Source: Clostridia bacterium
Lineage (GTDB): Bacteria; Bacillota; Clostridia; Oscillospirales; Acutalibacteraceae
Reading direction: 5' to 3'
NCBI GenBank assembly: GCA_017507805.1
Contig: JAFWAC010000034.1
Span: 1 to 64,000, forward strand
DNA length: 64,000 bases
Under the pieces are notes generated by a model that searched no databases, was not told the origin of the DNA, and worked only from the letters and a program-made list of their open reading frames with translations. Shown here in pieces: positions 5,226-37,987 of the stretch; positions within the stretch are counted from its first letter, which is position 1; every line of letters starts with the position of its first letter. The position numbers were made by a program, and so were the translations under genes.

Positions 5226-8200
5226 TTAAACCTCCTTTCGGGAATTAATACCCGCTTTTTTTCTTTTCAGATCCACGAAAAGCATTACGCCTCCGACAAC
5301 CGCCAAAACAAACATAACACCTGCCAAAGCAATCAAAACAATCGGTAGAACTGCCACGGAATTTTCACCCTTGACAGCAGGTGAAACCGCATCGTTATAA
5401 AGACGGTTGTTTTCGCCGGTCAATGTGTTGCCGGGGAAAACTTTAGCCGGCGGTTCTACATCAGCCACTTGCTCTCTTTTTGCCATATCATAAAGCTCAA
5501 TATCCTTAAGCTCAACACCGCATTGATACATTGCCAAACCGATAAATTTAACATCAAAGGATGGTGCATTATCAATATCAGCAAGAAGCTCACCGTCAAG
5601 CCAAACCTTAAGAACAGATTCCTCGCTATACATTACGACATCATAATCCTGTTTTTCCTTAAGGGTAACTATTGTATTGCTAAAGCTGTGATAGGTGTTG
5701 TTCATTTCGGCAACAGCGCCTATTGCATCGGGGAAGAAAAAAAGTCCAAAGAACTGCGATTCACTATCGCCGCGAATAATAACACGAGGGCTACTTGATG
5801 CCAAAATCGAGCCATCCTCGTTTCTTTTGCGCTCAGTAATATTAATCTTAAAGCGCAGTACAAACTTATCGGTATAGTGGAAAGCAGCACCGGTATTAAA
5901 GCTGATTACACCGTGAGCATTAACATTCGGGTTAGCGAAGGTTCTGCCGGTCATCGTAGATTCCTCCATACCCTCACCCTTACGAATGGTGGTTGAGCAG
6001 TTTTCGGGGAAAAGATTAACATTTCCCTTAGGAATAGCATTCATTACCTCTTTAACGGTTTTGTATCCTGCCTTTGCTTCAACACCATAAGCGCTGACTA
6101 CCCTCTTGGGTTCTGCAGGAAGCTTTGAATTATCCTTATGTGAAAGCAGAGATATATTTTCCATTTTAAATGTGGCTTGTCTCGAAGCAATGCCAAAAAG
6201 TGCCGGCATTTCGGGAATATCCACATTATCTAAAACAAGATTGTCATCAATATAAACCGAAGCCTTACCATACCCGCTAATTATTACAACCTTGTTTCCG
6301 CGCTTATCATTGCGCTTATAGGGAGCAACATTTTCAGTTTCGCCTGTAAAGGTTGATTTTGGATTACCTTGTGCATCTAACGATACTATAGAAACAGCAT
6401 TAGGGAAAAAGTAAAAAGCCAAACAATCCTTGGTACTGTTACCGCGGAAAATAACCACGGGAGCCTGCCAACCGCTTTTATCTGGGTCGTTAATAGTTAA
6501 AAGCTTTAAATTAAATGAATAACGATATGTACCCTTACTATGAACATCAAGCTCAGAAAACGCACCGCTGTCATATATAGAATTATCTGTACCGTTAATC
6601 GTAAGCTTGTTATATTTTATAGCATTGGAGCCGGATGCAAATTTTGAGTTGTTGTTAATCAGGTTTTGAGTTTTAAAGCCTACCATACTCAAATCGACAT
6701 TTTCGCCAACATTTTTATTGCTTGCTATCAAAGAAACAGGTTTAAACTCTGCGATACAATTTCTAACAGCCGCGCCGTACATTGCGTTCATTTCGGGAAC
6801 TGTTGCATCATCAAACAGCAGTTTTCCGTCAACAGAAATACTAACCTTACCGTTAGAGCTTACTATAACAAATTTGTTACCGTTTACATCATCTCTTATA
6901 AAGGCACGGTAATTTTCTGCTGTACCGGTGTATGTGGGAGAAACATTTCCGTTGCCATCTACTCTGACAATGGATAAGCTGTTTGGGAAAACATAGAGAG
7001 CGAGGAAATCTGACAAGCTGTTTCCGCGGAAAATTATAAGCGGTGCTTGCCAACCCTTGTTATCGGTCTCCTTAACAAACTTAACATCAACCTCATAACG
7101 GAAGGTTCCGTTTTTCAAAAGATTGAGACCGTCAATATATCCCATATCAACAACATTAGACTCTTTGTTTGTGATTACACCATCGGAATAATTGAGCTGG
7201 TCGTTGTTTGAAACGAAATCAAAGCTTCCGGCAAGCAGGTTTTTACCGTCAAAGAGATTTTCCTTTACAACAACCTCATTGTCATCGTGGGAAATCAAGG
7301 ACAAAACTTCTGCATTCATTGAACATTCACGCGAAGCAAAGCCAAACATTGCGCCCATCTCAGGCACAGTTGCATTTTCAAACAAGGTTACACCGTCAAC
7401 CTTTACCGAGACGGTACCGTAACCGCTTATAATTTCAAAATTGTTCCCTTTACTGTCATTTCTCGTAAACTGTTTGAAATTTTCAACACCGTTTGTATAT
7501 GTTGATTTAGGCTGACCGCCGCTGCTGTCAAGCCGAACGATGGATACACCTGTCGGGAAAAGGTAAAGTGCCAAGCAATCACCCAAACCGTCTCCGCGGA
7601 ATACTATAAGTGGCGCCTGCCAACCCTTATTATAGGACTCTTTTATAAACTTGACATTTACATCGTAATAATAAACACCGTCAGAATCCAATGTCAAATC
7701 AGCGAAATAACCGCTGTCAAAGCCTGCTGCTTCGCTCTTTGCAAGCGAACCGGCACTGTAAGAAAAAAGGTTATTCAACGAAATAAACTGTGCGTTTTCA
7801 CCTATAAGACTCTCACCGCTGAAGCCCTCAACAGGTTTTTTTTCGGTTGTTGAGCCTTGATTGTTTTCAGCAATTTTGGTTAAGGATACAGGTGTTGCCT
7901 GAATTGGAACATAGCGACTTCCTATTCCAAAATACGCGTTAGCTGCCGGCATTGTTGCATTTTCAAAAACAACTGTACCATTAACAGTAACCGTAACCGA
8001 GGTATAATGACTTTCAATTACAACATCATATTCTTTGTTGATTTCTCTCTTTAGCGAGGTATTGAAATGATCTATACCTCCGCCGATAGCCTTTGGATTT
8101 TCATTTTGCATTTTGGTAATACTTGTACCGCTTGGCCAGAAATAAACAGCATAGCAATCAGACGGGCTGTTACCTCTGAAAGGAATAAAAAAGGTGAAAT

Positions 8201-8492
8201 CCTTATTGCTGTTTAAACCTGTTTGCTTAACCTTTATTTCATAACGGTAAGAAGCAGTAGGGTCAAGATCTAAATTGGAATAGCTAACCGAATCCCAATT
8301 AACGGTGGTTGAACTGCTTATAACACCATTTTTAACCGAGAAAACATTTTTATTTGATGTTATGGAAAAATTAGATAAATAGTTGGTGGTATCAGCATTT
8401 ACTACCGATACATAAACAGAGGAAAAAAGCAAAGCGAAGGCTAATATAACCGAAAGAACGGTAAATATTCTTTTCTTTAACAAATCCGTCAC
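5226..8492 (-). CDS. Membrane-anchored surface protein made of five beta-sandwich repeats
   Basis: A 1088-residue protein with a signal peptide (residues 8-33), five tandem modules of about 180-190 residues, and one transmembrane helix (about 1046-1072) followed by a basic tail (KRKKAG). Each module repeats the same landmarks: an opening ENL/NLI segment, a YRYE-type strand, FRGN or FRGD, a central FFP/YFW..SI strand, a V-DG--LF-NA strand, and a closing FG-(A/G)SR strand. This looks like a ConA/LamG-type sandwich (compare DUF1080-like folds). No catalytic motif is evident, so a glycan-binding or adhesion role is the simplest inference. The same module occurs in three other proteins of this window. 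The start is a GTG with GAGG 7 bases upstream; a TTG four codons later is an alternative. It lies 12 bases after a sugar-binding lipoprotein and 5 bases before a GH13 gene, so the three are probably co-transcribed. Confidence 0.85.
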   Translation of the reverse strand: MTDLLKKRIFTVLSVILAFALLFSSVYVSVVNADTTNYLSNFSITSNKNVFSVKNGVISSSTTVNWDSVSYSNLDLDPTASYRYEIKVKQTGLNSNKDFTFFIPFRGNSPSDCYAVYFWPSGTSITKMQNENPKAIGGGIDHFNTSLKREINKEYDVVIESHYTSVTVTVNGTVVFENATMPAANAYFGIGSRYVPIQATPVSLTKIAENNQGSTTEKKPVEGFSGESLIGENAQFISLNNLFSYSAGSLAKSEAAGFDSGYFADLTLDSDGVYYYDVNVKFIKESYNKGWQAPLIVFRGDGLGDCLALYLFPTGVSIVRLDSSGGQPKSTYTNGVENFKQFTRNDSKGNNFEIISGYGTVSVKVDGVTLFENATVPEMGAMFGFASRECSMNAEVLSLISHDDNEVVVKENLFDGKNLLAGSFDFVSNNDQLNYSDGVITNKESNVVDMGYIDGLNLLKNGTFRYEVDVKFVKETDNKGWQAPLIIFRGNSLSDFLALYVFPNSLSIVRVDGNGNVSPTYTGTAENYRAFIRDDVNGNKFVIVSSNGKVSISVDGKLLFDDATVPEMNAMYGAAVRNCIAEFKPVSLIASNKNVGENVDLSMVGFKTQNLINNNSKFASGSNAIKYNKLTINGTDNSIYDSGAFSELDVHSKGTYRYSFNLKLLTINDPDKSGWQAPVVIFRGNSTKDCLAFYFFPNAVSIVSLDAQGNPKSTFTGETENVAPYKRNDKRGNKVVIISGYGKASVYIDDNLVLDNVDIPEMPALFGIASRQATFKMENISLLSHKDNSKLPAEPKRVVSAYGVEAKAGYKTVKEVMNAIPKGNVNLFPENCSTTIRKGEGMEESTMTGRTFANPNVNAHGVISFNTGAAFHYTDKFVLRFKINITERKRNEDGSILASSSPRVIIRGDSESQFFGLFFFPDAIGAVAEMNNTYHSFSNTIVTLKEKQDYDVVMYSEESVLKVWLDGELLADIDNAPSFDVKFIGLAMYQCGVELKDIELYDMAKREQVADVEPPAKVFPGNTLTGENNRLYNDAVSPAVKGENSVAVLPIVLIALAGVMFVLAVVGGVMLFVDLKRKKAGINSRKEV

Positions 8493-8504: not shown

Positions 8505-9995
8505 TTATTCGTTAAGCATACTATTAATAGTATCAGTGAAAACGCCTGATAAAGACTCAGCCTGAGATGCAGGTGTGCCCTGATTTAAATAGATTGCCTT
8601 GCCAACCATATTGTTACTTACATGGCTCAAGAAATCGGGAACGACTGTACCGTAATCAATGGTACTGCTTTCAAGTATCAACTCATAAATTTCAAGGTTT
8701 TTATCTTGATTTTTTGTGAAATAGTCTCTCTTGATATCCTCTTTCCACCAATTATCGCCATCGCCGGACTCGCTTAATATTCTTGCCATAGTGTTAAATA
8801 CAATAACGGATTTATCAATATCCTTGTTGGTTGTGGTGAAGGCAAATGCGCGGGTATGCGCTGAGCTGCTTGTATATTCGGTTGCATTGGGTCCCATAGG
8901 CATCGGTAAAATACTGTAATCCAAATCAACAGTATTATTAACTAAGAATTTATTTCCTGCCCAACTTTCAGTAAGCCAGAAAGCAACCTTGTTGCGGCAG
9001 AACATATTGAAAATATCTGTTCTCTCAGGAACCTGAGAAGTTACAGAGGAGGTTCTCATAAAATCAAAGATATATGTAGTTTTGTCAACATTAACGAGTG
9101 TATTAAGAAACTCAAAACCGTAAAGAAAATCCTTATTGGTTATGTTTTCAACATATTTGCCTTCCGAATTTTTCACAAGCATCGGGGCATTATTTGCAAT
9201 TGCGAAATACACTCCGCAATCAGGTGCATAGGACATAACCAAACCTGTTCTGTCCACCTCACCGTCACCGTCTGTATCCTTGGTTACCTTTTTGCAGATT
9301 TCTCTGAACTTATCAAAGGTCCACTTTTTATTCTTAACCAAAGAGAACAAATCCTCGTTGATGCCGCTTTCCTTAAGCACGCCGTTGTTTACAAACATAC
9401 ATACTCTTACTTCCTGCGGACGGATAAAATTGAGGAATAAATGCAAATCATCATAAACACCCAAATTTGTTACAGATTTAACCCAACGCTTGTCATTATA
9501 ATCAATGCCGTCTATATATTCCATTGCGCGAATATATCCGGCTTCATAAGCAGGAATTAAATTCGTTGGTGTAATGTCAAGAAGGTCTGCCACCTTTTCA
9601 CCCGCCATCATCTGCTGTTGAAGCGAGGAAACTGTGGTTTCCATATTCTTAACAGTAATTTTGCAATTAAGTAATGCCTCTGTCTGGCGGCGTGCATTCT
9701 CAAAAGCAGTGTCCTGAGCTGTAACAATTCCGCCAAGCTCATTTTGCAGGAAAACGGAAGCTATAACAAATTCATAGCCCTTCAAATCCACAACATCATC
9801 CTTGCTGTATGGCTCGTACCTTTCGAAATTGAAGTTATTATTCCCGGAATCTCCGTCAATGGTGGTGTTAATCTTTTTTCCGCCCTCGTCCTCGGTATCG
9901 CCCGAAGCTGTTCCGCCTGTTTTTCCGCAGCCGGCAACAGAAAGCACCAAAGAAACCGCACATAAAATTGCAAATAACCGTTTAAAATTTTTCAT
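8505..9995 (-). CDS. Sugar ABC transporter substrate-binding lipoprotein
   Basis: A 496-residue family 1 extracellular solute-binding protein. It has a lipoprotein signal with lipobox SVAGC (Cys23), then a Gly/Asp/Ser-rich tether. The body has the usual two-lobed sugar-binding features, including the internal calcium-loop-like segment DTDGDGEVDRTG and a WTFDKFREICKK helix. It should bind an oligosaccharide outside the membrane and deliver it to MalF/MalG-type permeases. No permease is adjacent; the nearest are at 39658-41475 and 46143-47930, and one of those pairs may use this protein. The start is an ATG with AAGGAAGG upstream. The 126-base gap before it holds a weak hairpin and several TATAAT-like boxes, so it may have its own promoter ahead of the two genes that follow it. 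Confidence 0.9.
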   Translation of the reverse strand: MKNFKRLFAILCAVSLVLSVAGCGKTGGTASGDTEDEGGKKINTTIDGDSGNNNFNFERYEPYSKDDVVDLKGYEFVIASVFLQNELGGIVTAQDTAFENARRQTEALLNCKITVKNMETTVSSLQQQMMAGEKVADLLDITPTNLIPAYEAGYIRAMEYIDGIDYNDKRWVKSVTNLGVYDDLHLFLNFIRPQEVRVCMFVNNGVLKESGINEDLFSLVKNKKWTFDKFREICKKVTKDTDGDGEVDRTGLVMSYAPDCGVYFAIANNAPMLVKNSEGKYVENITNKDFLYGFEFLNTLVNVDKTTYIFDFMRTSSVTSQVPERTDIFNMFCRNKVAFWLTESWAGNKFLVNNTVDLDYSILPMPMGPNATEYTSSSAHTRAFAFTTTNKDIDKSVIVFNTMARILSESGDGDNWWKEDIKRDYFTKNQDKNLEIYELILESSTIDYGTVVPDFLSHVSNNMVGKAIYLNQGTPASQAESLSGVFTDTINSMLNE

Positions 9996-14112: not shown

Positions 14113-15192
14113 TTATCCGAATTTCTTATCTCCGTTCAAAGCCTTTGTTTGAGCCTTGATTGCTGTTTCTATAGCATTAAAGGATTTTATTTCTTCTGCT
14201 TCTGTGTTGTTTCGTTCGGCAATGCTTTGTAACAAATCCGCAAAAAAGGAAACACCGACCTTTCCGCCGACAGTTTCATAAAATATCCCGTCATCAGTAA
14301 CCACAAAAACATTATCGGCACCGTTATCAAAACCTATATTGATGTTTTTTCTAAGCTCAATATAGCCCTTTTCGCCCTCGATAACTGTGCGGGGATCACC
14401 CCAGGTATTAAGCCCCTTGGGAGCATCCCAATCCAGCCTGAAGCTCCCTGTTATGCCGTTTTTTGTTTTTAAAAGCATTTCACCTGACTGATCAAAGTCC
14501 TGTTTTTGGGGATAAGAAAAATTAGAAACACGGGCAAATTCCACCTCTGCGCTATCACTTCCCGTAAAATTCAAAAACTGATGCACCTGATGGGAGCCTA
14601 TATCTATTAAAATGCCGCCGCTTTTTTCACGCTCGAAAAACCAAGTGGGACGCGAAGCATAATTAAGAACATGAGGTGCTGAGCCTGTAATATAAAAAAC
14701 TTCGCCTATTACCCCCCGCTTAATTAAATCGTAAGCAAAAATTGTTGACTCGCTGTCAATGCTTTCACCGTAATAAACAAAATATTTTCTTTCGGTTTGT
14801 CTCCGGACTTCCTTTACGGCATTTAATTGCTCCAAGGTGATAACGGGCGCTTTATCGACAAAAAAGTCTTTGCCTGATTTCATAGCCGCTATTGCAATTT
14901 CTGCCCTTTGTGAGGGAATAGCCGCAGATACAATCAATTCTATATCCTGCTTTTCATAAATCCTTTCCTCACAACTGCAAGCTTCTACAAAGGGATACGC
15001 CTTTTTAAAATTTTCCAAAAGCGTTTCGTTATCCTCGTATACATATTTAAGCTCAGCGCCTGCAGAAATAAGACCGTTGCACATTCTGTAAATATGAGCA
15101 TGCGCCAGACCGACAACACCAAAGCAAATTTTGGATTTTACGGTTTTTTCAGATTTAAAATTACTGTAATCAAATATTTCGTTATGTTTCAT
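14113..15192 (-). CDS. Gfo/Idh/MocA family oxidoreductase with a DKAP variant of the EKP motif
   Basis: A 359-residue NAD(P)-dependent sugar dehydrogenase-like protein. The N-terminal Rossmann fold starts at KICFGVVGLAHAHIYRM. Where family members usually have E-K-P, this protein reads VDKAPV (D113-K114-A115-P116), keeping the lysine but spacing the proline one residue further. The C-terminal alpha/beta domain includes GSHQVHQFLNF, the usual region for the active-site His. I chose the ATG at 15192, immediately after the TGA of the upstream gene; a TTG three codons earlier is possible. The gene is directly behind a second family member, so the two may act as a pair. Confidence 0.85.
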   Translation of the reverse strand: MKHNEIFDYSNFKSEKTVKSKICFGVVGLAHAHIYRMCNGLISAGAELKYVYEDNETLLENFKKAYPFVEACSCEERIYEKQDIELIVSAAIPSQRAEIAIAAMKSGKDFFVDKAPVITLEQLNAVKEVRRQTERKYFVYYGESIDSESTIFAYDLIKRGVIGEVFYITGSAPHVLNYASRPTWFFEREKSGGILIDIGSHQVHQFLNFTGSDSAEVEFARVSNFSYPQKQDFDQSGEMLLKTKNGITGSFRLDWDAPKGLNTWGDPRTVIEGEKGYIELRKNINIGFDNGADNVFVVTDDGIFYETVGGKVGVSFFADLLQSIAERNNTEAEEIKSFNAIETAIKAQTKALNGDKKFG

Positions 15193-15193
15193 A

Positions 15194-16345
15194 TCAATCA
15201 ATCATCTCGAGGTATTGCGGATATTCTCTCAAAAGCTTTTCGTCATTGTAACAACTCAAAAGCAGTGTATCCAAGCCATCCGCATAAATTTGATTTCCCT
15301 GTCGCAAAATAAATTTCTGTTTAATATTATGTATGTTATGCTTTTGAATTTTTTCGACACATCTGACCTGTGCAGCGGCTGTGGAAACACCGCACACCGG
15401 TACATAATTACCGCTTTTGCTTGCCTTAATAGCCTCATAAATTTTCTCATTTGCATCATAAAAAGGATTGCCGTAATTATACTGATTTCCATCCAAGGTT
15501 TTCCCGATGATTTCTTTTTTAGTCGCATCATAGGTAACAGTGCCCTTACTAAAGCGGTATTCAAAAATCGGATCTGTTGCGGTCTCGGTAGCGTGGGAGG
15601 CTAAAAACAAGCCCCTCGCGCCGTTATCTAATGTAAACCTGACGGCAGCAGTATCAAAATTTTCAATTTTATTGGTGCGGCTCAGGTCACATTCGACAGA
15701 TATAACCTCACTGCTCATATCCCTTTCTTTTCCTGTAACATACAGCATATTATGCAAAAAGTGCGCCGTTGCGTTATTAACCACGCTATCGTTAATAATC
15801 TCACCCTCAGGACTTAAAAGCCTGCCTGCCCAACCGCTTCCGCGGGTAAAATAATCCTCTGCTCTCGGCCAAAGCACCAAGCTTTTTAAAAACTCGGGGC
15901 TACCGTACAAACCGTTTATTATATCACTTTTCAAAGCATTTATTGCTTTTGAGTAGCTCCATTGATATCCGATTATAACAAATTTGCCGCTTTGTCTGAT
16001 TTGAGCATTTATTTCCTGTTCATCGGCTGAAACTCCGGACAGAGGCTTTTCACACATAACATTTGAGCCGTTTTTAAGGGCGCAAAGAATTTGCGGTTTA
16101 TGCAAATGAATAGGAGTGGTAATTATTGCAAGGTCTGCCGAATATTTTTGATAAAATTCCTCCATGGTTCCGAAAAGTGGCACACCCAAAGCCTTTAATT
16201 CCCGATAACACTCACATCTTTCGGGAAATATTTCCACCATACCGACTATTTCAAAATCATCTCTTTGGTTTTTTAACAGGCTTTTTAAATAAATGGTTGC
16301 ATATCCGCCTATTCCGACACAAAGAATTTTCACCTTTTCAACCAA
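15194..16345 (-). CDS. Gfo/Idh/MocA family oxidoreductase
   Basis: A 383-residue NAD(P)-dependent dehydrogenase-like protein. The Rossmann motif is CVGIGGYATIYLKSLL (9-24), and the canonical CEKPLSG has K100 as the expected catalytic lysine. NNATAHFLHNMLYVTG in the C-terminal domain holds candidate active-site histidines. The start is a TTG, supported by GAGGGAG about 9 bases upstream; the nearest later start, GTG at codon 5, has no better site. The upstream gap of 55 bases follows the unassigned barrel protein gene. Such enzymes oxidise a sugar hydroxyl, often at C3, which would suit an oxidise-then-cleave route, though that is inference. Confidence 0.88.
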   Translation of the reverse strand: MVEKVKILCVGIGGYATIYLKSLLKNQRDDFEIVGMVEIFPERCECYRELKALGVPLFGTMEEFYQKYSADLAIITTPIHLHKPQILCALKNGSNVMCEKPLSGVSADEQEINAQIRQSGKFVIIGYQWSYSKAINALKSDIINGLYGSPEFLKSLVLWPRAEDYFTRGSGWAGRLLSPEGEIINDSVVNNATAHFLHNMLYVTGKERDMSSEVISVECDLSRTNKIENFDTAAVRFTLDNGARGLFLASHATETATDPIFEYRFSKGTVTYDATKKEIIGKTLDGNQYNYGNPFYDANEKIYEAIKASKSGNYVPVCGVSTAAAQVRCVEKIQKHNIHNIKQKFILRQGNQIYADGLDTLLLSCYNDEKLLREYPQYLEMID

Positions 16346-20446: not shown

Positions 20447-21772
20447 TTAAACCTTTTTAACTGTAAAATTGGGCATATAATCTCTATTAACCTCGAACAT
20501 ATCGTTGACCATGTGCTTGATTTCCTCTAAGGACAGCACTGCGGAGGTAAGCGGATCATAGCAAATTGCCTGATAGATTTTGCGCGGGTCGCCCTCTAAA
20601 ATACCGTTCACTGCCAATTCCTCGCACTGCGCGCTTGTATTAACCATAACAGCCAACTGCTCGGGAAGCTTTCCTACATGAATGGGCTCTAATTTGTTAC
20701 GCGAAGCAAGGCACGGAACCTCAACAGCACAGCCGACAGGGAGATTATCAATCAAGCCGAAATTACGGACATTTCCGTTAAATTCAAAGGGCTTGCCGTC
20801 ACCGAACATTGCATTAAATATGTAAGCGGCATATTCCTCTCCGCGGTTCAAATCAACCTCATTTTCCATCCACTCGTTTAGCATAGACTCGTAATTCTTT
20901 TCGCGATCCTCGTAAAGCTCCAATGAATAGGCATATTTTCCGGGATTCCAGCCTGTGCCGTCAATGCAATACTTATCAATCAAGTCCTGGCGCTTTCTGA
21001 ACCAAGCATTATACTCAGAATTGTGACCGCTTGACTCAGTAACATAATAATCAAAAGCCAAGTACATCTCGTTTCTGACCTTTTCCTCATTATAAACCTT
21101 GGGCTTTTCCATTGCCTTACGGATTAAGGGATAAGCGTCCTTACCGTTCCACTTAAAATCAAGATAAAAAGCCTGATGATTTATTCCTGCGCAGGTATAG
21201 GTCACTTCATCCATTGGAGCTCCTATCCAACGCGCAAGCATATTAGCGGTAGCCTGCACGCTATGGCAAAGTCCTGTTGCCAGAACCTTTGTTTCCGACT
21301 GAATAGCGCGGCAAAGCATTGCCATTGGATTTGTATAATTCAAAAGCACCGCATCAGGACAGTATTTCTCAATATCCTTACAAATATCAAGCATTAAAGG
21401 AATTGTACGCATTGCGCGGAAAATTCCTGCAGGACCTCTTGTATCGCCGATATTAATATCAACGCCATATTGCTTGGGTATCTCGATATCGTGACGGAAA
21501 ATTTCCACACCGCCCTGCAAAACTGTTGTGATAACACCGTCTGCGCCCTGCAAGGCTTCTGCTCTATCCAAGGTTGAAAGAACAGTGGCTTGATAATTAC
21601 CTGCTTTAATTATACGGTTTACAACATTTGTTATTGTTTCCAATCTGCCCTCATGAATATCCATCAAGGCGATTTCGCAGTCCTGAAAGGCGGGAAAGGT
21701 TAATAAATCCCTAACAAGATTTCTGGTGAAAACAATACTTCCTGCTCCGATAAATGCAATTTTCTTTGACAT
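20447..21772 (-). CDS. melA: GH4 family NAD/metal-dependent glycosidase, alpha-galactosidase (MelA) type
   Basis: A 441-residue cytoplasmic GH4 enzyme. The NAD-binding loop is [10 protein letters not shown] (6-15), with the acidic strand end MDIH near 38. Further family blocks are [16 protein letters not shown] (110-125), [10 protein letters not shown] (143-152), the metal-ligand segment GLCHSVQ (C169, H170) and [13 protein letters not shown] (H199). The GLCHSVQ and AGINH blocks match the alpha-galactosidase/MelA branch better than the 6-phospho-glucosidase branch. I chose the ATG at 21772, which has GGGAG 7 bases before it; an earlier start would run into the preceding gene. GH4 enzymes cleave by a redox mechanism through a 3-keto intermediate, which is notable beside the Gfo/Idh pair. 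The symbol is by resemblance only. Confidence 0.88.
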
Positions 21773-21812
21773 AAAAATTCTCCCTTTTTTTATTTTTGTT
21801 TTTATTCTTTTG

Positions 21813-24800
21813 CTATGATACCTTGGCACTACCGAAAACGGCATTAGCCTTGCTCGAATATAGAATTGGTGTGGCACCGCAACTGAAATCAGCATCCCAA
21901 CTGCAAACTGCATCAGTTACTCCATCAATATAAACACTGAACTTTCCGTCCTTTAAAACAATACTCAGCCTAACAGAGGATTTTTGAACCTCAACACTTT
22001 TTATGATTTTTCCATCCTTTTTAACCACCAGGCATTTGTCTGTTCCTAAAGCCACTTTATAATCGGAAAGCTTGTTTAAGCTTGGAATATTCTTAAATAA
22101 AATACCACTTTCACCTATGCTTGTTGTTGTAGCAGTGCAGAATATCTGCAATTCCATTTTCATTTCTGTTGCTGCAAATCCAATAGGAATTAAATGTGCT
22201 TCAAAGCTTGAGGTAGAAGGCTTTAAATTGATATTGCTGCTACTGTCCGAAACGGTTCCGTAACGCGCACTCCAATTACAATTCAGGTCATACAAATTGT
22301 AATTACTGAACAGAACGGGAGTATCCTTTGCAATATATGAAAAATAGCCCGATGTTTTTGTCAGTCCGTCATATTGCAAAACGCAGGTCAGTTTTTCTCC
22401 TGTATAAACTGTTACCTTTCCGTTTTCAAATTGCAAAATAACCCTTCCGTATTCAAAGTCCTCTTTTGAAATATACACGGATTTTAAAAGCGTTTCCTTG
22501 TCATAAAGAGAAACTGCCCTATCAGAGGTAATTCTCAAGGCATAACCATCTGCACTGCCTTCGCTGCTTTGACAGAACAGATAACCTGCAAAGCCGCCTG
22601 CGCATATCTCTTTAAAAGTAGTATCAGCCCTGAAATCCTCAAAGGTCTTGGATGTATTAAGCAGTGATATACCGCTTTCGTTATTACTTCTTATTCCGCC
22701 AAGCTCATAAGAGAAGTTTCCGCTTCCAACAGTTGTATTACAATTATCTATTTTTTTATTTAAACCAACTGTGCTGAATTTGTACTCACCAATAAGCTTC
22801 GGTGTATTATAAGAAGCTCCGTCCTCATCGCTTTCACCAAAACAGAAGCTCTCAAATTCAACCGTCTTTTTAGCCGAAGCCGCAATGCCTGCAAGGGCTG
22901 TACTGTAATTGGCGAAAATATAATCATCGCCTAATGAATACCACTTATCTTCTCCCTCATAGCAATAAACCGCTGTGAATACGGTACCTATGCGTTGTAA
23001 TTGAACAGAAATTGTTTTCTGAGGAGCTATATCCTCAATCTTGTGCTTGACAATAAGCATTCCATTGTCTGTCTTGCCAAAATAGATATATTGCTTCCCA
23101 TTTTCACAATATCTGCCGGCACTAACGAAATCTGTTTCATTTGCAAATGCGGAAACACCAAAATACTCACCGTCACTAAGGTTTGCATTGCCCGAAAGCA
23201 GAGCCTTTGCAGTCCAATCCGAAACGGTTGGCAGCATTGCGCCAAAACCACCGATTTTATCAGAGCTGAATTTCAACTTTGCGTTTTCGAGCTTTACATT
23301 TTCAACCTGACCGATTGGCTGACTTAAGCAGGTTTGGAAATCACCGCTAAAATCATCAAACAGTGTTGCCGATCCGCTGACACCATCAGGCTTTGAAAAT
23401 TCAGCCGTTCCTTTTATACAAGCAAAGCCCGCATAAAACTTTTGCGGCAAATCAATAGCACACTCTGAACCTTTAATAAGCTTCCATGAAACGCCATTAT
23501 CCGAATAGAAGGCTTTGAAAATGCCGCTTTCCTCCCTGCTGATACGGAAAAACCTTCCGCTTCCAACATTTACGGAACATACTTTTTTCAGATAATTCCA
23601 AGCCTTTTGTCTGCAATAAACCGTTGCATTTTCAGTGCCAACAACAAGCATATACTCCGCTGCTGTCTGCGTTTCGTCACCGCGCAGAGCCAATACTGCC
23701 TTTCCATTGTCGGAGCAATCAATTCTGCTAACCAAAGAAGCCTTATTGTATACTGTTTTTAAGGCAAAATCAGTAGTATCCCATATTCCGCCTATTCTGC
23801 CGGAAGCCTTTACTTTATAGACCTCGGCAAAATTTTCCTTCTTTTGCAATGCCACAGGTGTTGCAACAACGGTTGATTGACGCGTTCCTACACCAAATAA
23901 CGCAGGTTTGGAAGGAATTGTTACCGAATCAAAGATTTTCACCCCGTCAATAGTAACCGAAACCTTTCCGGGAGTGCTCTCAATTACAACATTGTATTCC
24001 TGTCCTATATTTCTTGTAAATGACGAATAATAATTATCATAGGTATTTCCATTGTCATCTGTGGGTACAGATGGATTTTCTGAATTCATCTGCACAATAC
24101 TTACACCCGTTTTCCAGAAATACACTGCCATGCAATTCGTGACGCTTTTACCGCTAAACGGAATAAAGAATGTATAGTTGTTGTTTTCAACATTTTCGGG
24201 TTGGCAAATATTGATTTCATAACGGTAATATCCGTTACTGTCTAAGTCGGGGATACTGTAAAAAAGTGTATCGCTTGTATTTGTTGCATTGCTAATGATA
24301 CCGTTTTGATATGTAATATTACCGTTTGCCGTATTAACTGACATATCCTGAGACAGTAGGTTTTCACCAAATATATTTTGGTCGTTTATAGATACTAAAG
24401 ACTTTTCTGTTTTTTGCTCGTTATTATTCAGCTTGTATTCTCCGATATAATCGCCGGCTTTTCCGGTAACGAGAACGGTTCCACCACCGTTGACCAAAAC
24501 ATTAATTTTTCCGTTGGCAACTATATAATGTTCTCCGGTAAAGTAATCGGTCAAGACAGTACCGTCAGCAACATCCAACTGTCTGACATCTAATTCGGTA
24601 GTAACAGCATCTGTGTTTTGATTTGCAATTGTTAAAACAGTACCGTCCTCATCCCAACGGCCAAAAGCATATATTCTCTTTTCATCGTCTGCTTTTACAT
24701 TCTTGAATGCGCCTGTTTTTACAGCCGAATATTCTTGTCTTAACTCATTTAATGCTTTTTGCAGATTATAAAAATCATAATCCCAAGTGGTTTCATTCCA

Positions 24801-27752
24801 ATTGAATGCATCCCAATTTATTTCCTCGCTTACAGCACCGTTTTCGCTGCCGTAATAAATCCAAGGCGAGCCGACAAAATTCATAACCGTAAGTCTTGCG
24901 GCTATAATTTTAGCCTTGCTTTCCTCTGTGCCGTCATACATTCTTCTGTGATCGTGACTTTCATAATAATTCTGACAGCAAAGCGCTAATTGGCGGGTTT
25001 TTTGTAACAAGCTCAATCTTGCGTCAGAAGCAAATTCTGTTGCAGTCTTTCCTTCGGAAATCCAATCACGCAAATATTGCATCATGTCAAGCATACACCA
25101 CTGACCGTCAAGCGCACCGCTTTTAAGTTGGTCGGGTGTTGCCCATTCAGAGATGAGAAGTGCATCGCTTTTTTGTGCTTTCACATTATTGCGTATATCC
25201 TGCATAATTGTAACTGTATCGGTAGATGAGCCCCAAAGCTCACCGCCGATATCCAACCGCCAGCCATCAGCATCGTAATAGTTATTTAAGTACCTGCGGA
25301 TATACGAATCCTCATCCTGATACATCATTTTTCTCGGCAGTTCATTTGAATAGTCGATTTGTATACCGCCCCAATAATTATTATATTTATTAGGCCAGCT
25401 TTCAAAATAAAACAAATCATAAAACGGACTGCTTGTCGATTGGAATGCGCCCTCTAAAGGATTAAGACCTGATTTGTTAAACCAAATATTCTTGTTTGAT
25501 GCGAAATTCAAAACCGCATCCAAAACCACCTTCAAGCCATAATCATGTGCTATTGCTATGGTTTCGGCGAAATCCTGTTCATTACCGTAGCTACTGTCAA
25601 TTTGGTTATAATCGGTAGCACCGTAGCCCATACCGCTGTCACTTTTCCAAACGGGGTTAAAGGATAAAATCTCGGCTCCCATTTCATCGGCAATGTAGGA
25701 CATTTTTTCCTGCAAGCCTTCAAAATCACCGCCGTAACGGCTTAAGCATTCATTTTCCTCGTCTGCAGACAGAGCAAAAGTTCCGCCGGTTGTTGCGTAA
25801 TCGTTAAGAGTCGTACCGTTATAAAAGCTATTCACAGGCATAGAATATACGACTGCCGCTTTTGCCCAATCGGGTGTTTTGAGGGTAGGAATCATTATAA
25901 AACCTGATGTATACCAATTTGCAGTGCTTGAAACCTGCTCATTCAAATCCAAATATACAGTATATTTTTCATTAGAGCATTTAAAACGATAATAAAATGT
26001 TTTTGATTGCGGTGGAATTACACCCTCAAAATAATCGTAATAACCGGTTTTATCAAGGTCAACCTTTTTCATTTGAACAGAGGTAAAGCTATTACTACCC
26101 ACAGCATATTCTATATTCGCTTTGGTGACATTACCCTTTACGGTACGGATGCGAACCGTTATTTCCTGCGATGCGGTTGGCTCTAAGGGAGATATATAAA
26201 TATACGCCTGCTCATGAAAAACATCGGTTATTTCGGCATAAGCATTTGCGGCTATTTCACCATCTGTAAGCCTTGATTGTTGAGAAAAAGACACCTTTGA
26301 ATATACGCAGTTATTATCTGCAACCGTATATCCGCGTTGGAAAACGGTTGCTTTTTCAGCAGCTGTTAGTTGAACACCGCTTAATTCAAGGTTATCTCCA
26401 AGATGAATTTCCGTATTGGTAAAATTAATTATTCCACCCTGAATTTTAACCTGCTTTTTATGCTCTAACCAAGCCGAAACATTAACCTTATCTAAAATAA
26501 CAACCGTTCCACCGTTTTTCACTAAAGCAATTGCCTTGGAGAGTGTTCTCACAGGGGAAGTGTCGCTTCCCGAATTGCTGTTGCTTCCCGTTTCGGAAAC
26601 ATAAACCGTTTCCACTGTTCCGCTTTCTAAGGAAAAATATCCCTCGTTTGCGGTTGTAATACGGTTAAGCTCGTATTGATTTAAAACTTCCTCATAGGCA
26701 TAGTATTCATAGATATCTTTAGCAGAAACGAACTGTGTTTCCCCGTAAATAACCAAAGCCTCACCGTTTGTATCGACAGCATTTATATACGGTCTGAAGG
26801 CATATTTCTTTTGAGCATTTTCAGATGAAATATCATATAAATATGCTGTAAACTCACCATTATAGGCTATGTGCGCAACACTATCGCTTCCGTTAATTTT
26901 AGCATAATTACTGCTAACGGTAAGCTCGGATTTTTTAGCGTTGTTTCCTGAAGCAATCAAAACACCGTATTTAACCGCCTTATAAACCTGATTTTGATAT
27001 AAAATCCTGCCGTTTGCATCAACATCCAATGCAAAATGAAGGCGCATTGCCTGCTGCTTTAAATCGGATTTTTTAGTCGTATATGTACTATATCTTAAAG
27101 TAGCCTTTTGTGCCTGCAACGGATTTTCCCTGTAATCTGTAACACGGATATCCGAAATTTCACAGCTTGCATTTGAAAGCTCAATGCCAAAGCCGACACT
27201 TAAAACAAACGAAGCGTCAAATGCCTTCGCGCTGTCAATCCAAACACATACCCTTTTACCTGATAAAACATATTTAAGATTATAAGCTTTGCCCGTATCA
27301 AACGAAAACTCAAATACCTTTAATTCTGAAACGGTGTTATCTGATTTAATTAAAATCAGTTCCAGATATTCTCTGCCGATTTCAAGTGCGAAACGCCCTT
27401 CATCACTCTGTCCTAAGAATATTCTTAAATAATCATTCACAGCAAGCTCATTCTTAAGGGCAACATCCATACTGTAAAGATATTCCTTGTTATTTGCCAA
27501 AACCGATTGTTTAAACCAAACGGTTTCGGTTGCCGCTTTTTTGGTGCTTAATTCATTTTTCGAACCATCAAAAGACAAATTATCGCTTGCCAAATCAACC
27601 CAATTAAACGAATCGGCATAGTTTTCTATTCCGCATGCAATACTCTCTTTCTCCAAAGGTGCCGCGGCATACACTGTGCTTGGGGCTGCTAATGAACACG
27701 CTATCAGCGATAAAACCAATATAAAGCCTACTAACCTCTTCAAACTAATCAT
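21813..27752 (-). CDS. Very large secreted multidomain GH13 enzyme
   Basis: A 1979-residue extracellular protein with a signal peptide ending near VYAAA (29). In order: a ConA-like module (about 40-205), a beta-rich segment (215-345), a beta-helix-like block starting [14 protein letters not shown] (384-480), a CBM34-like domain (510-620), a GH13 barrel (630-1000), a beta domain, one copy of the ~190-residue surface module (about 1135-1320), and further LamG-like modules to the end. Catalytic residues: D834 in GWRLDIGG, E869 in LISEWA, H933-D934 in ESHDHRR. Region I is DAVLNFAS (D745), with Phe where His is usual. There is no membrane helix, LPXTG or dockerin at the C-terminus, so how it stays at the cell is unclear. 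Its ATG overlaps the GH3 stop by 4 bases. Confidence 0.9.
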
Positions 27753-32564: not shown

Positions 32565-32578
32565 TACAGATGACAATT

Positions 32579-34588
32579 TTAAATGGTATCTGCGCTGCCA
32601 TTGGCAACATCGGCTGATGTGGGGATACCTAATATGGTCTTAACGATCAAAACTAAGTCCTCACCGTCAATATCGCCGTCAGCGTCAAGGTCTGCTGCTG
32701 CTTCACTTACAGTAACATCAAGACCTGCAATATACTTTTTAACACGGATAAGGTCCAAAACATCGGTCTCGCCGTTGCCGTTAGCATCACCGGAAACTAC
32801 GGGTTCAGCCATTTTAACAAGTGAGAAATCGCTTGCCTCAACTGAGCTTGCACGGGTACCAACACCGAAGCATGCATTATCCATTTCGGGTAATGCAACA
32901 TTATCAAAAATTGTAACACCGTCTATAATTACAGTAACGCTGTCATAATGGCTTTCGATTACAACATTGTACTCTTTTCCTGCCTCTCTTGTTACGGCAT
33001 AGGGATAAAAATAATCATACTTGCCACCGTTTTCATTCAAGAGGTCGAAGTAAGTATATGAATTTACCATTCCAAGAATACTTACATGACCGGCTTCCCA
33101 GAAATAAAGACCGTAGAATTTACCCATCTTTCCACGGAAAGGAATATAGAAAGCTTCCTTGTTTTTTCCTACTATTTGCGGTGTCTTAACATTAAGCATA
33201 TAGCGATAGCTTGCTTTTGCATCCAATGCCAAATCAAACAACATAACATCGTTTAAATCTGTATCCGGACAAGAAGCTACACCGTTGCTATATGTGATTA
33301 TAGGTTCACCGGATTGATTTGCAACGGTTGTTGAGGAGGTGATTAAGTTTTCACCTGTAATGATTTCTTCATCGTCCTCTTCTTCATCCTCAGTCAAAGC
33401 AGTAAGAGAAACAGGCATTGCAGCAAGGGAAACATTGCGTTCACCCACGCCGAAGGCTGCATCCATTTCAGGTAATTGAATATTATCGAAAATTTTAACA
33501 CCGTCCACAATTACGGTTGCGCTGCCATAATGGCTTTCAACTACAACATTGTATACCTTACCAAATGTGAAGGTATATTTTCCACCCATGTTTGAGTAGT
33601 AATACACAGCGTTACCATCGGCATCTTTAAGATCGTTAGGAATATTATATTTCATATTATTAATGAATATATTGCCTTTAAAGAAATACACTGCAAGACA
33701 GCTTTCACCTGTACCGCGGAAAGGAACATAAATTGAATAAGAATCACCATACGAGGATTGCCACGGTTGCATAATATTAACCTCGTAGCGGTAGCTTCCC
33801 TTGGGGTCAAGCTCAACATCAAGCATAGCGGTATCCCAACAATCTTTTTTATCAACACGGATTAAACCGTTTGCTTCCCTTACCATCTGCATAGGAGTTC
33901 TTATTGTAGATACAATAGGTGTTGATTTTGAAATCAAATTGCCCTCGATAACAGGCTCTTGCTCCTCAACATACTCTGTAAGTGAAACAAGTTCAGCAGT
34001 AACGGGAAGGTTCTTTGTACCGATACCGAACATTGCGGGATATTCAGGCAATGCTACATTGTCAAAAATCGGGAAACCATCTATAATTACGGAAGCACTG
34101 CCCAAATGGCTTTCGATTACAACATTATATTCCTGACCGACATTACGGGTCTTTTGATAGAAATAATCCTTTACCTCACCGTTCACAACAACGCCGTTGG
34201 CAACAACATTGTTGGTTGCCATTTTTGCAATACTAACACCGCCCGGATAGAAGAACACTGCCAAGCAATCACTTGGAGCATTACCACGGAAAGGAATAAA
34301 GAAACCTTCGGTACCGTTGCCATAAGGATCAGACGGAAGCTTAATGTTAACTTCATAACGGTAGCTACCGTCAAAATCTAAATCAAGATTTAAGGTTGCT
34401 ACATCCCATGCAAGCTGAGATGAGCTGATAACACCTTCTTCAAGCGTAAGTATAGCAGGGTCTCTAACTGTTGTAATGGTTGCACCGTCCAAAAGATTAG
34501 TGGGTTCTGTTGCAGAAACACTCATCGGAACAAAGATTGCGGCGATAAGCATAACTACACTCAAAATTAAACTAAAACATTTTTTCAT
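32579..34588 (-). CDS. Secreted three-module protein with C-terminal type I dockerin
   Basis: A 669-residue extracellular protein. It has a signal peptide (about 1-26), three copies of the ~190-residue beta-sandwich module (about 30-210, 220-410, 415-590), then a dockerin from residue 600. Both dockerin calcium loops are intact: DANGNGETDVLD and DLDADGDIDGED, each followed by the helix pattern DLIRVKKYIAG or DLVLIVKTILG. A dockerin should plug into a cohesin on a scaffold protein; no cohesin is visible in this window. No catalytic motif is seen, so it may be a binding subunit. Start: ATG at 34588 with AAGGAG 8 bases upstream; the GTG three codons earlier is too close to that site. Paralogous, including its leader, to 35078-37987. 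Confidence 0.9.
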   Translation of the reverse strand: MKKCFSLILSVVMLIAAIFVPMSVSATEPTNLLDGATITTVRDPAILTLEEGVISSSQLAWDVATLNLDLDFDGSYRYEVNIKLPSDPYGNGTEGFFIPFRGNAPSDCLAVFFYPGGVSIAKMATNNVVANGVVVNGEVKDYFYQKTRNVGQEYNVVIESHLGSASVIIDGFPIFDNVALPEYPAMFGIGTKNLPVTAELVSLTEYVEEQEPVIEGNLISKSTPIVSTIRTPMQMVREANGLIRVDKKDCWDTAMLDVELDPKGSYRYEVNIMQPWQSSYGDSYSIYVPFRGTGESCLAVYFFKGNIFINNMKYNIPNDLKDADGNAVYYYSNMGGKYTFTFGKVYNVVVESHYGSATVIVDGVKIFDNIQLPEMDAAFGVGERNVSLAAMPVSLTALTEDEEEDDEEIITGENLITSSTTVANQSGEPIITYSNGVASCPDTDLNDVMLFDLALDAKASYRYMLNVKTPQIVGKNKEAFYIPFRGKMGKFYGLYFWEAGHVSILGMVNSYTYFDLLNENGGKYDYFYPYAVTREAGKEYNVVIESHYDSVTVIIDGVTIFDNVALPEMDNACFGVGTRASSVEASDFSLVKMAEPVVSGDANGNGETDVLDLIRVKKYIAGLDVTVSEAAADLDADGDIDGEDLVLIVKTILGIPTSADVANGSADTI

Positions 34589-34629
34589 TTTTTTCACTCC
34601 TTAAAAAATTTAAAAAGGGTTGCTGTTTT

Positions 34630-34690: not shown

Positions 34691-34758
34691 GATTAATTAT
34701 CTTGCCGCAAATGAGAATTTGCTTGCAGTCTTTGAGCCGAACGGTTTTAATTATTCAA

Positions 34759-34891
34759 ATTATAGTTTATTGGGGTTATTCGTAGGGGACGATGCCCACA
34801 TCGTCCCGTTGGGTTTCTGCAAATTTTGGCGGGACGATGTGGGCATCGTCCCCTACGAAAGGTCACTTAAATTAGTGCGATAAACTATAAT
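34759..34891. mobile_element. MITE-like palindromic element, 133 bp
   Basis: Outer 12-bp perfect terminal inverted repeats (ATTATAGTTTAT at 34759-34770, complement at 34880-34891) enclose a 30-bp perfect inverted repeat (34779-34808 and 34830-34859). Each 30-bp arm is itself a hairpin around GACGATG/CATCGTC. No coding capacity. One arm recurs exactly (29 bases) at 60519-60547, showing that the unit disperses. Confidence 0.7.
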
Positions 34892-35016
34892 TCAGACACA
34901 TTTACACCATCGGGGTATTAGGTTGCGATTTTGCATGACGAAAAGGCGGATTGACCACCGCGGCACGCGGCAAACTATAATTTGATTACAACCTGTGCAT
35001 CCTGCGGCAAGACATT

Positions 35017-35055
35017 AACCCAAGAAACGAATCGGGAAAGCAACCGTTGCAGGAA
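35017..35055 (-). pseudogene. Relic of an ADP-ribosylglycohydrolase 3' end
   Basis: On the minus strand this reads PATVAFPIRFLG then a stop, against PTTVVFPIRFLV then a stop at the end of the intact gene at 38102-39613. About 33 of 38 bases match. It begins about 20 bases after the stop of the dockerin-CE4 gene, and an in-frame TAA upstream prevents a longer reading. It looks like the leftover of a duplicated copy, most of which was lost or replaced. Confidence 0.6.
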
Positions 35056-35077
35056 CAATATCATCGGTGCAAACAGA

Positions 35078-37987
35078 TTATTTTCCCCCATCCGATGTGG
35101 GTTTCCCGGCAAAAACTCCTTTCAGAGTAGTACCAGCTTCTATTTCAATAATATTGCCGTTATACTCAAACCAAAGCTTTCTGTCTGTGGGATTTTTGAT
35201 TGTATCGTCAGCAAGTGATATTTCCAATTTATTGTAATCGCTGACATAGCTGTAAACATCGCCATAGGTAGCATACCAAACATCCTCTTTGCCGCCTACG
35301 CTACTGCAATATGCTTCGAAATTTTCCCATCCCCAGTAATTAACAATTTCATAAGCATGACCCCAGATATTAAATAATTTAGGATCGGTAGTAACCTGAG
35401 TGTTAAAAAAGTCAGGCGAGAATAGGTCCTTGATTTTTGACACCTGCGGAATAGAAACAGTAGCCTCCCATACCAACCAATTAGTAGGTATAGAAAAATT
35501 ATTAGAGCAAGAAACAGGACGAGCATATCCTACATTATTTTTTTCAAGATAATTTACAACTTCACCATTGTAGACAGTATATGGCGGTGCGCCGGGATAA
35601 GCCATTCCCAAAACATCAACGCCAAGCCAGGCTTCAAGGTTAGCCATATCATCTAAAACCTCAGCCTTCAAACCTGCCTCACCCTGCTGGGCTAAAACAG
35701 TAGGTAAATCGGGATGTGTGGTAGAATGACTGCCAACCTCCATACCGTTATTTACATAGATTTCCTTCGCCTGTTCTGCCGAAAGGAAAGAACCTGTACC
35801 CATTCGGCCGCTATTCAGGAAGAATGTGCCTTTAATACCGTATTTTTTGAAAATTTCAACTATTTTCTCATCATCGGGCATACCGTCATCAAAAGACATA
35901 GTAAAGGCTTTTGCTTTTCCATCGGGATATCGCATATAAACACTAATCGGAAGCCCAAGTATTATTCTGCAGAGTGCAGTTACATCCTGAGCGTCAATTA
36001 TATATTCATCGCCAACAAGATTAACTAAAGCCTTATCAATTTTCACATCAAGACCTGCAACATATTTCTTAACGCGAATAAGGTCTAAAATATCGGTTGT
36101 GCCGTTGCCGTCAGCATCGCCGTAAACAACGGGTTTGGGCATTAATTGTTTAATTGAGAAATCGGTTGCCTCAACTGTGCTCATACGGGTACCAACACCG
36201 AAGCAAGCAGCATCGGTTTCGGGCAATGTAACATTATCAAAAATAGTCTCACCGTCTAAGATAACTGTCACGCGGTTGTAATGGCTCACAATTACAAAAT
36301 TATATTCCTTATCATATTCTCTTCCGGGGGTATATGTATACCAATGATCTATTTTATTGCCGGAACTATCTGTGGGTATAGCGAACTGTGAACCACTGTA
36401 ATATCTAAGAATAGATATGCCTGTACCCCAGAAATGTAGACCTAAGCAATCACCCATCTGACCGCGGAAAGGAATAAAGAAGGTGTAATCCTGAAACTTG
36501 GCATTTTCAAAGGCAGGTTGCTTAACGGTAAGCTCATAACGATAGCTTGCCTTTGGCTCAAGCATAAGGCTAAAGAGAGCTATATCGGCATCATTAGCGT
36601 CTGTTCCTTTAATAGTGCCGTCTTCATAACTAAGAAGCGGATTGTTGGTATTGCAGTTATAAATGGTTGTTGAAGATGTAATTAAATTTTCACCTTCAAC
36701 GAGGTCTTCCTCATCTAAAGCAGATGGTTTTTTAATTCTAACAAGCGAGAAATCACTTGCTTCAACTGTGCTGAATCTTTCACCAACACCAAAGCAAGCG
36801 GCGCTGGTTTTGGGCAATGAAATATTATTAAAAATAGTAACACCATCTAAGATAACGGTTACGCTGTCGTAATGGCTTTCGATTACAAAGTTATACTCCC
36901 TGTCATATTTTCTTCCGGAAGCATATTGATAAAAATAATCGTATTTATTACCGGCAGTGTCCGTAGGTACAACAAATGAATTGCTTGAATTGAATTTTAA
37001 AATAGAAATACCGTTTCCCCAGAAATACAGACCTAAAACATTGCCCTTTTGACCACGGAAAGGAATAAAGAAGGTGTAATTCTGAAAATAAGAGTTTTCA
37101 AAGGTAGGTTGCTTAATATTAAGCTCATAACGATAGCTTGCCTTTGCGCTGGTATCCACATTAAATAAAGCCATATCAGTATTTGTATAATCTGTGCCGG
37201 TGATACTACCGTTAGAATAAGCGAGTATGCTGTTTTCGGTTGTAATAGCTGTTGAATCGGTGATCAGGTTTTCGCCTGTGAGGGTTTCATCCTCGTCTTC
37301 CCCGACATCCTCGTCACCGTTATCAATGTAGTCACCTATTTTAACAACCGAGAAATCACTTGCCTTAACTGTGCTTGCACGGGTACCAACACCGAAGCAT
37401 GCATTCTCCATTTCAGGTAATGTAACATTATCAAAAATTTTAACGCCGCCTATAATTACAGTAACGCTATTATAATGGCTCTCGATTACAACATTGTATT
37501 CTTTTTCTGCCTCTCTTGTAACGGCATTGGCGAAATAATGATCATACTTATTACCTTCGGCATCCTCGGGAACATAAAAGGTATATGAATTTACCATTCT
37601 AAGAATACTTACAAGACCTGATTTCCAAAAATAAAGAGCATAGGAATTACCCATCTTTCCGCGGAAAGGAATGTAGAAAGCTTCACTGCTTGTTCCTGCT
37701 AATTTCGGTGTCTGAACATTAAGCGTATAGCGATAGCTTGCTTTGGAATCTACTGCCAAATCAAAGAAAACGGCATCGTTTAACTCAGTATCCGAACAAG
37801 TAGCCACACCGTTACTATATGTAATTATAGGTTTGTTTGATTGATTTGTAACGGTTGTTGAGGAGGTGATTAAGTTTTCGCCTGTAAGGTTCCCATCCTC
37901 CGTTGCAGTTGCGGTTATACTCATTGGTACAAAAATTGAAACAATAAGCATAACGACACTCAAGATTAAACTAAAACTTTTTTTCAT
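35078..37987 (-). CDS. Secreted three-module protein with internal dockerin and C-terminal CE4 deacetylase
   Basis: A 969-residue extracellular protein. Signal peptide, three ~190-residue beta-sandwich modules (about 30-215, 225-410, 420-610), a dockerin from residue 623, then a NodB/CE4 domain from about 680. The first dockerin loop is canonical (DADGNGTTDILD); the second (NLVGDEYIIDAQD) has lost some calcium ligands. CE4 motifs are MSFDDG (D700, D701), GSHSTTH (H754, H758) and MAYPGAP. It should remove acetyl groups from a polysaccharide while docked on a scaffold. The dockerin is placed between domains, which is uncommon but known. Start: ATG at 37987 with AAGGAG 8 bases upstream. Its deacetylase domain is closely related to the stand-alone protein at 31105-31932. 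Confidence 0.9.
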   Translation of the reverse strand: MKKSFSLILSVVMLIVSIFVPMSITATATEDGNLTGENLITSSTTVTNQSNKPIITYSNGVATCSDTELNDAVFFDLAVDSKASYRYTLNVQTPKLAGTSSEAFYIPFRGKMGNSYALYFWKSGLVSILRMVNSYTFYVPEDAEGNKYDHYFANAVTREAEKEYNVVIESHYNSVTVIIGGVKIFDNVTLPEMENACFGVGTRASTVKASDFSVVKIGDYIDNGDEDVGEDEDETLTGENLITDSTAITTENSILAYSNGSITGTDYTNTDMALFNVDTSAKASYRYELNIKQPTFENSYFQNYTFFIPFRGQKGNVLGLYFWGNGISILKFNSSNSFVVPTDTAGNKYDYFYQYASGRKYDREYNFVIESHYDSVTVILDGVTIFNNISLPKTSAACFGVGERFSTVEASDFSLVRIKKPSALDEEDLVEGENLITSSTTIYNCNTNNPLLSYEDGTIKGTDANDADIALFSLMLEPKASYRYELTVKQPAFENAKFQDYTFFIPFRGQMGDCLGLHFWGTGISILRYYSGSQFAIPTDSSGNKIDHWYTYTPGREYDKEYNFVIVSHYNRVTVILDGETIFDNVTLPETDAACFGVGTRMSTVEATDFSIKQLMPKPVVYGDADGNGTTDILDLIRVKKYVAGLDVKIDKALVNLVGDEYIIDAQDVTALCRIILGLPISVYMRYPDGKAKAFTMSFDDGMPDDEKIVEIFKKYGIKGTFFLNSGRMGTGSFLSAEQAKEIYVNNGMEVGSHSTTHPDLPTVLAQQGEAGLKAEVLDDMANLEAWLGVDVLGMAYPGAPPYTVYNGEVVNYLEKNNVGYARPVSCSNNFSIPTNWLVWEATVSIPQVSKIKDLFSPDFFNTQVTTDPKLFNIWGHAYEIVNYWGWENFEAYCSSVGGKEDVWYATYGDVYSYVSDYNKLEISLADDTIKNPTDRKLWFEYNGNIIEIEAGTTLKGVFAGKPTSDGGK

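Follow-up and report, generated by a model that had tools for sequence, protein, structure and literature searches.

Four proteins encoded in a 64,000-nucleotide window of a Clostridia bacterium genome (assembly GCA_017507805.1, contig JAFWAC010000034.1, positions 1 to 64,000) share a repeated β-sandwich module, for which, on the strength of predicted models and profile comparisons, "remote CBM66-like" is the best name. The proteins are a membrane-anchored array protein (5226-8492), a GH13 enzyme (21813-27752), a dockerin protein (32579-34597) and a polysaccharide deacetylase (35078-37996). We propose, with a probability of roughly 55%, that these lectin-like modules form a multivalent cell-surface glycan-capture system serving GH13 and ABC import. 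Two features are new here, as judged from comparison across genomes: the recurring association of membrane-anchored arrays with one GH13 type, and the division of the modules into a shared membrane-proximal type and a locally amplified type.

The four open reading frames (ORFs) had been named in an earlier sequence-only reading, which described twelve copies of the module, distributed among proteins with a dockerin, a deacetylase, a GH13 barrel or a membrane anchor. The ORFs were translated and compared among themselves by sequence search, and 12 modules of 177-189 residues, with pairwise identities of 17 to 72 percent, were delimited and aligned: five in 5226-8492, one in 21813-27752 and three each in 32579-34597 and 35078-37996. 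Each copy was sought with a profile built from the other eleven, together with 999 shuffles of the same copy; all 12 were recovered, eleven at E ≤2.8e-45 and A5 at E 1.1e-11, and the top shuffle score was at most 12.3 bits. The repeat and its spread over the four kinds of protein were thus borne out, but the copy number proved too low: an iterated profile that drew on the window and on ten related loci added a divergent 13th copy, B0, N-terminal in the GH13 protein (residues 42-210; E 3.1e-5 before it joined the profile). With the final iterated profile the best shuffled ORF reached E 0.43, and B0 was detected again by a 37-row profile, which itself includes B0. Two ORF ends had been placed at internal ATG codons (34588 and 37987); the GTG start codons are at 34597 and 37996. 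The parts of the four proteins are as follows.

7869..8399, minus strand: module A1, first of five in the membrane-anchored array protein 5226-8492 (alignment, leave-one-out profile)
7284..7823, minus strand: module A2, array protein (alignment, leave-one-out profile)
6720..7253, minus strand: module A3, array protein (alignment, leave-one-out profile)
6135..6680, minus strand: module A4, array protein (alignment, leave-one-out profile)
5481..6011, minus strand: module A5, membrane-proximal subtype, array protein (leave-one-out profile, tree clade, AlphaFold model)
5274..5354, minus strand: hydrophobic, putatively transmembrane C-terminal segment, array protein, then a basic tail (mean hydropathy 3.03 over 19 residues)
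27129..27629, minus strand: module B0, N-terminus of 21813-27752 (iterated profile)
24801..25829, minus strand: GH13 catalytic domain of 21813-27752 (PF00128, 95.9 bits)
23838..24377, minus strand: module B1, following the GH13 catalytic part (leave-one-out profile, AlphaFold model)
33971..34504, minus strand: module C1, dockerin protein 32579-34597 (alignment, leave-one-out profile)
33398..33949, minus strand: module C2, dockerin protein (alignment, leave-one-out profile)
32807..33373, minus strand: module C3, dockerin protein (alignment, leave-one-out profile)
32630..32791, minus strand: dockerin type I of 32579-34597 (PF00404, 34.8 bits, cut-off 22.9)
37343..37891, minus strand: module D1, deacetylase protein 35078-37996 (alignment, leave-one-out profile)
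36740..37291, minus strand: module D2, deacetylase protein (alignment, leave-one-out profile)
36146..36700, minus strand: module D3, deacetylase protein (alignment, leave-one-out profile)
36005..36124, minus strand: dockerin-like stretch of 35078-37996 (PF00404, 10.2 bits, E 0.89, below the cut-off of 22.9)
35534..35920, minus strand: NodB-type polysaccharide deacetylase domain of 35078-37996 (PF01522, 58.2 bits)

Ordered landmarks, claimed earlier for every copy, are present in most (YRY, FRG and FG(V/I)(G/A)(T/S/E)R) but not in all 12: A5 deviates, with LRF, IRG and IGLAMY in their place, and only one Gly, one Ser, one Pro and one further Gly are invariant.

AlphaFold gave a confident β-sandwich for B1 (pLDDT 93.2) and for A5 (pLDDT 92.0), and the best structural match found with Foldseek was the CBM66 of the Bacillus subtilis levanase SacC (PDB 4azz, 4b1l, 4b1m), to which the modules are 12 to 16% identical; the ConA/LamG-like fold guessed from the strand pattern is supported by both models and their matches, with the SacC module closest. 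By sequence, a 37-module profile matched a single PDB entry below E 0.001, again the levanase CBM66 (E 3.6e-6), and a 25-module profile, made from modules of the same genome, matched the SacC module at E 4.2e-4. In a Pfam scan no family attained its cut-off within the modules, the closest near-miss being TS_C (25.6 of 27 bits, in 5226-8492). The earlier remark that no named family was known for the module holds as far as Pfam cut-offs go but not as regards kinship, since CBM66, to which the modules come closest both in fold and with the wider profiles, is a named family. Botulinum toxin binding domains among the Foldseek matches were set aside as merely sharing a common lectin fold, and a GroEL match in NCBIfam was regarded as chance.

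The array gene is flanked by genes for a solute-binding lipoprotein and a second GH13 enzyme; probable permease genes lie elsewhere in the window, next to two other membrane-protein or DUF genes.

457..5220, minus strand: 1587-residue GH13 enzyme with a ConA-like tail, directly after the array gene (PF00128, 100.8 bits)
8505..9995, minus strand: ABC-importer solute-binding lipoprotein, encoded immediately ahead of the array gene (PF01547, 28.6 bits, cut-off 26)
39658..41475, minus strand: two probable ABC permease genes, 39658-40578 and 40582-41475 (translation by eye, position compared with locus L082)
41472..44057, minus strand: DUF5696 protein adjoining the permeases (PF18952, 456.5 bits)
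44054..46123, minus strand: NHL-repeat/Yip1 membrane protein (PF01436, 54.6 bits; PF04893, 50.8 bits)

Both GH13 proteins exceed the PF00128 cut-off of 22 bits, and in seven of seven such enzymes the columns of Asp341, Glu376 and Asp442, which we take to be the three catalytic acids, are invariant, so that a substrate with α-glucosidic bonds is likely. The window also encodes GH3, GH4, GH16, GH29, GH123 and GH63/trehalase-like genes, which argues against naming any one substrate. The last domain of 457-5220 (at about positions 469-924 of the window) is PF06439 (46 bits, cut-off 26.8) and is not one of the modules.

Loci are designated below by L-numbers and genomes by G-numbers, G000 being the genome of the window and C13 one of its contigs. 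A scan of the named genomes with seven of these GH13s as queries yielded 60 loci, 17 of which (L082-L097 and L131, in 12 genomes) carry the same GH13 type, defined by a tblastn E value of 4e-55 or better; several of the 17 GH13 ORFs are truncated by contig ends. A membrane-anchored array lies near the GH13 in 9 of the 17 loci (L082, L083, L084, L088, L089, L090, L092, L095 and L096) and in 9 of the 12 genomes; leaving out L090 and one member of the near-identical pair L083/L096, all three of which are counted here, gives 7 of 15. The array protein, with its C-terminal hydrophobic segment, adjoins the GH13, except that three genes intervene in L088 and L095. Four further loci (L085, L086, L087 and L131) have a module within the GH13 protein, no module was found in L091, L093, L094 or L097, and none of the 43 loci with other GH13s had a module at E 1e-3. 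In L082 the gene order is Yip1-like (27.9 of 28.6 bits), DUF5696, permease, permease-sized gene, solute-binding protein, array, GH13 and GH106; in L084, L088, L090 and L095 the permease and solute-binding protein genes were assigned by size, hydropathy and position only. The L092 array protein (L092:3423-9863), from a goat rumen Lachnospiraceae metagenome-assembled genome, includes in addition a phosphoesterase domain of the calcineurin-like kind (PF00149).

The genome of the window itself holds a similarly organised second cluster, with 14 further module matches (C13:104000-124000, L033). It comprises a module-dockerin protein, a GH13-module-dockerin protein, two membrane-anchored module proteins, another GH13 and, by eye, two permeases and a solute-binding protein, and its tandem arrays reach seven modules; G037 holds a third cluster of this kind. 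Among 70 genomes of the genus, hits above 300 bits to 457-5220 and module hits above 90 bits coincide in the same two genomes; the remaining genomes give GH13 hits below 100 bits and, in seven of them, module hits of at most 36.3 bits, which make up the balance of the nine genomes (own included) matched by the 37-row profile. The 12-copy profile matched, own genome included, 4 of 70 genomes of the genus, 2 of 295 of the order, 5 of 391 of the class and 2 of 398 of the phylum, in draws that overlap and with most class and phylum hits weak. A degenerate-pattern scan of genome contigs, based on seven close modules, returned 35 pattern matches and no confirmed relative, in a collection from which the own and near genomes may be excluded.

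To relate the copies, a tree of 66 modules was used, from which L090 (identical to L034), named-locus hits above E 1e-6 and hits spanning 100 or fewer profile positions were left out, the last filter dropping three modules of the 1089-residue L088 protein and the single L095 module. A1-A4, B1, C1-C3 and D1-D3 fall into one clade (98/75, not starred), which, as read from the tree, is one local expansion; within it C3 pairs with D1 (72 percent identity) and D2 with D3. B0 is a long branch without placement. A5 lies outside the eleven-copy clade and groups (98/96) with modules from eight other proteins (L033, L034, L082, L083, L084, L089, L092 and L096), in each case the last or only one, preceding a C-terminal hydrophobic segment. 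That A5 is instead a fast-evolving member of the local expansion was weakly rejected (approximately unbiased test, p 0.037, for a group picked after the tree was viewed). The distal modules showed no cross-grouping among the window, C13/G037 and L082-type arrays. To call distal modules specific to each locus is nevertheless too broad, as the array positions of L082, L083, L084 and L096 present in the tree are orthologous and one module carried by a GH13 protein of L033 clusters with those of L085-L087. These enzyme-borne modules, situated towards the C-terminus of their GH13 proteins, form a clade of their own (100/100) across L085, L086, L087 and L033:11608-12162, which by its placement is a second conserved module position, on the enzyme.

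The genome has 30 dockerin places and 9 cohesin (PF00963) places above cut-off; after the C13 cluster comes one of the cohesins, sharing its reading frame with a dockerin. That the module travels with a dockerin, as the sequence-only reading stated, holds for 32579-34597, but in 35078-37996 the dockerin is degenerate: by eye its first repeat seems intact and its second degenerate, and it may no longer dock.

We infer from these arrangements that the modules bind carbohydrate at the cell surface in cooperation with GH13, ABC import and cohesins. The array protein would be held at the membrane through its C-terminal helix; its four distal, locally expanded modules (A1-A4) would hold polysaccharide, with A5 as the membrane-proximal, more widely shared type; the GH13 enzymes 457-5220 and 21813-27752 would cleave the captured chain, and the solute-binding protein and ABC permeases would import the products. 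The protein 32579-34597 would be a pure binder, 35078-37996 would join three modules to a deacetylase, and both dockerin proteins would increase what a cohesin-based complex can capture. That the modules are a dedicated binding unit, as suggested earlier, is plausible, and is favoured because of the recurring gene neighbourhood. A more specific form of the proposal is put forward only tentatively: the array protein may be an undescribed Gram-positive surface glycan-binding protein, in which a shared membrane-proximal CBM66-like hub connects to the GH13 and ABC importer, and amplified, lineage-rewritten distal modules, here copied onto dockerin, deacetylase and enzyme proteins, tune capture.

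Several observations weigh against glycan capture in the service of GH13 and ABC import. The presumed operon is split in the window, the permeases and DUF5696 gene lying 30 kb from the array. Eight of the 17 same-type GH13 loci lack an array; in L087, L093, L097 and L131 at least 5 kb of upstream sequence is present and holds none, the other array-less loci starting closer to the GH13, and the L095 array and L131 module depend on weak hits (8e-5 and 1e-4). The profile behind the genus comparison includes modules of G000 and G037, and G042 gave no match to the GH13 457-5220 despite having five very divergent modules, found by the iterated profile only, with one weak match to the 12-copy profile. 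(These five lie on a 1444-residue protein, L070:1420-5754, around a stretch that by eye is esterase-like; the protein has a C-terminal hydrophobic segment.) The profile of the 12 window copies alone matched no solved structure in the PDB, its best hit being a LacI chain at E 0.09, so that the sequence link to CBM66 depends on the wider family. As to ligands, PMC11002231 describes two characterised CBM66 members, one binding fructan ends and the other lyase-treated xanthan, the latter ignoring levan and inulin; CBM66 ligands thus vary, and as neither is an α-glucan, the modules may bind something other than what the GH13 enzymes cut. The CBM66-like C-terminal domain of the BT1760 levanase showed no bound ligand (PMC6560043).

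The BT1760 domain, which bound no levantetraose and which its authors judge non-binding (PMC6560043), also lends some credit to the view that the modules are ligand-free β-sandwich spacers, projecting enzymes or anchors from the wall or stabilising their neighbours, as does the restriction of invariance over 12 copies to Gly, Ser, Pro and Gly. We consider this unlikely: 32579-34597 has no Pfam domain above cut-off besides its dockerin, so that its three modules have no enzyme to serve, and Asp36, Arg52, Tyr53, Arg75, Arg122, Ser134 and Arg166 (B1 numbering) are conserved in at least 10 of the 11 clade copies, although these residues may be structural.

Somewhat less probable again is a protein-docking role for the modules, or for the A5 type at least, in which they would join GH13, solute-binding protein and array protein. 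The A5 clade unites membrane-proximal modules of otherwise ungrouped arrays, and the label "membrane-proximal", borne by 13 of the 66 tree rows, requires 5 changes on the tree against at least 9 in 500 shuffles (mean 12.0); yet four of the 13 lie outside the A5 clade (nine inside), the eleven-copy expansion resembles an amplification that serves avidity, and the closest relative with a solved structure binds carbohydrate.

The 3-keto-disaccharide hydrolase family PF06439 (DUF1080) and laminin G domains also have ConA-like folds. Catalysis of the 3-keto-glycoside lyase or hydrolase kind is very improbable: PF06439 weakly matches 1 of the 12 window modules (E 0.066) and 3 of 37 (best 1.7e-5), and two genes at 14113-16345 are by eye oxidoreductase-like, but the four module proteins reach at most 22.4 bits, below the family cut-off, and none of the positions invariant across the 12 copies is acidic or a His. 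Neither laminin G model (PF13385, PF02210) was listed at E ≤1 for the proteins of the window or for the 12 modules; the L082 array scores 25.8 of 27.6 bits.

Multivalent glycan capture can be set beside known systems. SacC provides the closest fold; here, unlike in SacC, the modules stand in tandem arrays on membrane-anchored and dockerin proteins beside GH13. SusE/SusF-type surface glycan-binding proteins of Bacteroidota utilisation loci are membrane-held multi-domain binders encoded with an uptake system and GH13. The array would work alike, as a functional analogy, but in Clostridia, held by a C-terminal membrane helix and paired with an ABC importer. Sas20 reportedly carries a dockerin. 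According to PMC9112005, it is a non-catalytic protein of the Ruminococcus bromii amylosome, a cohesin-dockerin system, and has discrete binding domains; 32579-34597 follows the same plan, with putative binding domains plus a dockerin, which by analogy favours binding, but the Sas20 domains are described there as β-sandwiches with helices and a bilobed groove, in place of three CBM66-like modules.

In our view, how Gram-positive gut bacteria without SusD-like proteins hold polysaccharide is less understood than in Bacteroidota. The module family offers a concrete, testable candidate for this in uncultured Clostridia, several of them from ruminant guts, being tied to one GH13 type and probably to an ABC importer, with shared membrane-proximal and locally amplified distal positions. 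It would also be a divergent branch near CBM66, whose two members described as characterised in PMC11002231 bind unrelated ligands.

Other features of the window were noted. The two GH13 enzymes have a second set of tail domains in common (residues 681-1385 of 457-5220 and 1312-1979 of 21813-27752, 28% identity), distinct from the CBM66-like modules. The GH4 ORF 20447-21913 overlaps 21813-27752 by 101 bases; its translation probably begins at the internal ATG preceding SKKIAFIG. DUF5696 occurs at 14 places in the genome, and both copies inspected, including 41472-44057, adjoin permease-like genes. A second repeated module, with units of about AGGTGT-DPY-I-T-EQL by eye, is found at 56458-60399 and 61715-64000; one of the two proteins ends in a hydrophobic segment, the other in a stretch resembling a dockerin (17.1 bits, below cut-off). 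The two modes of display match those of the CBM66-like modules.
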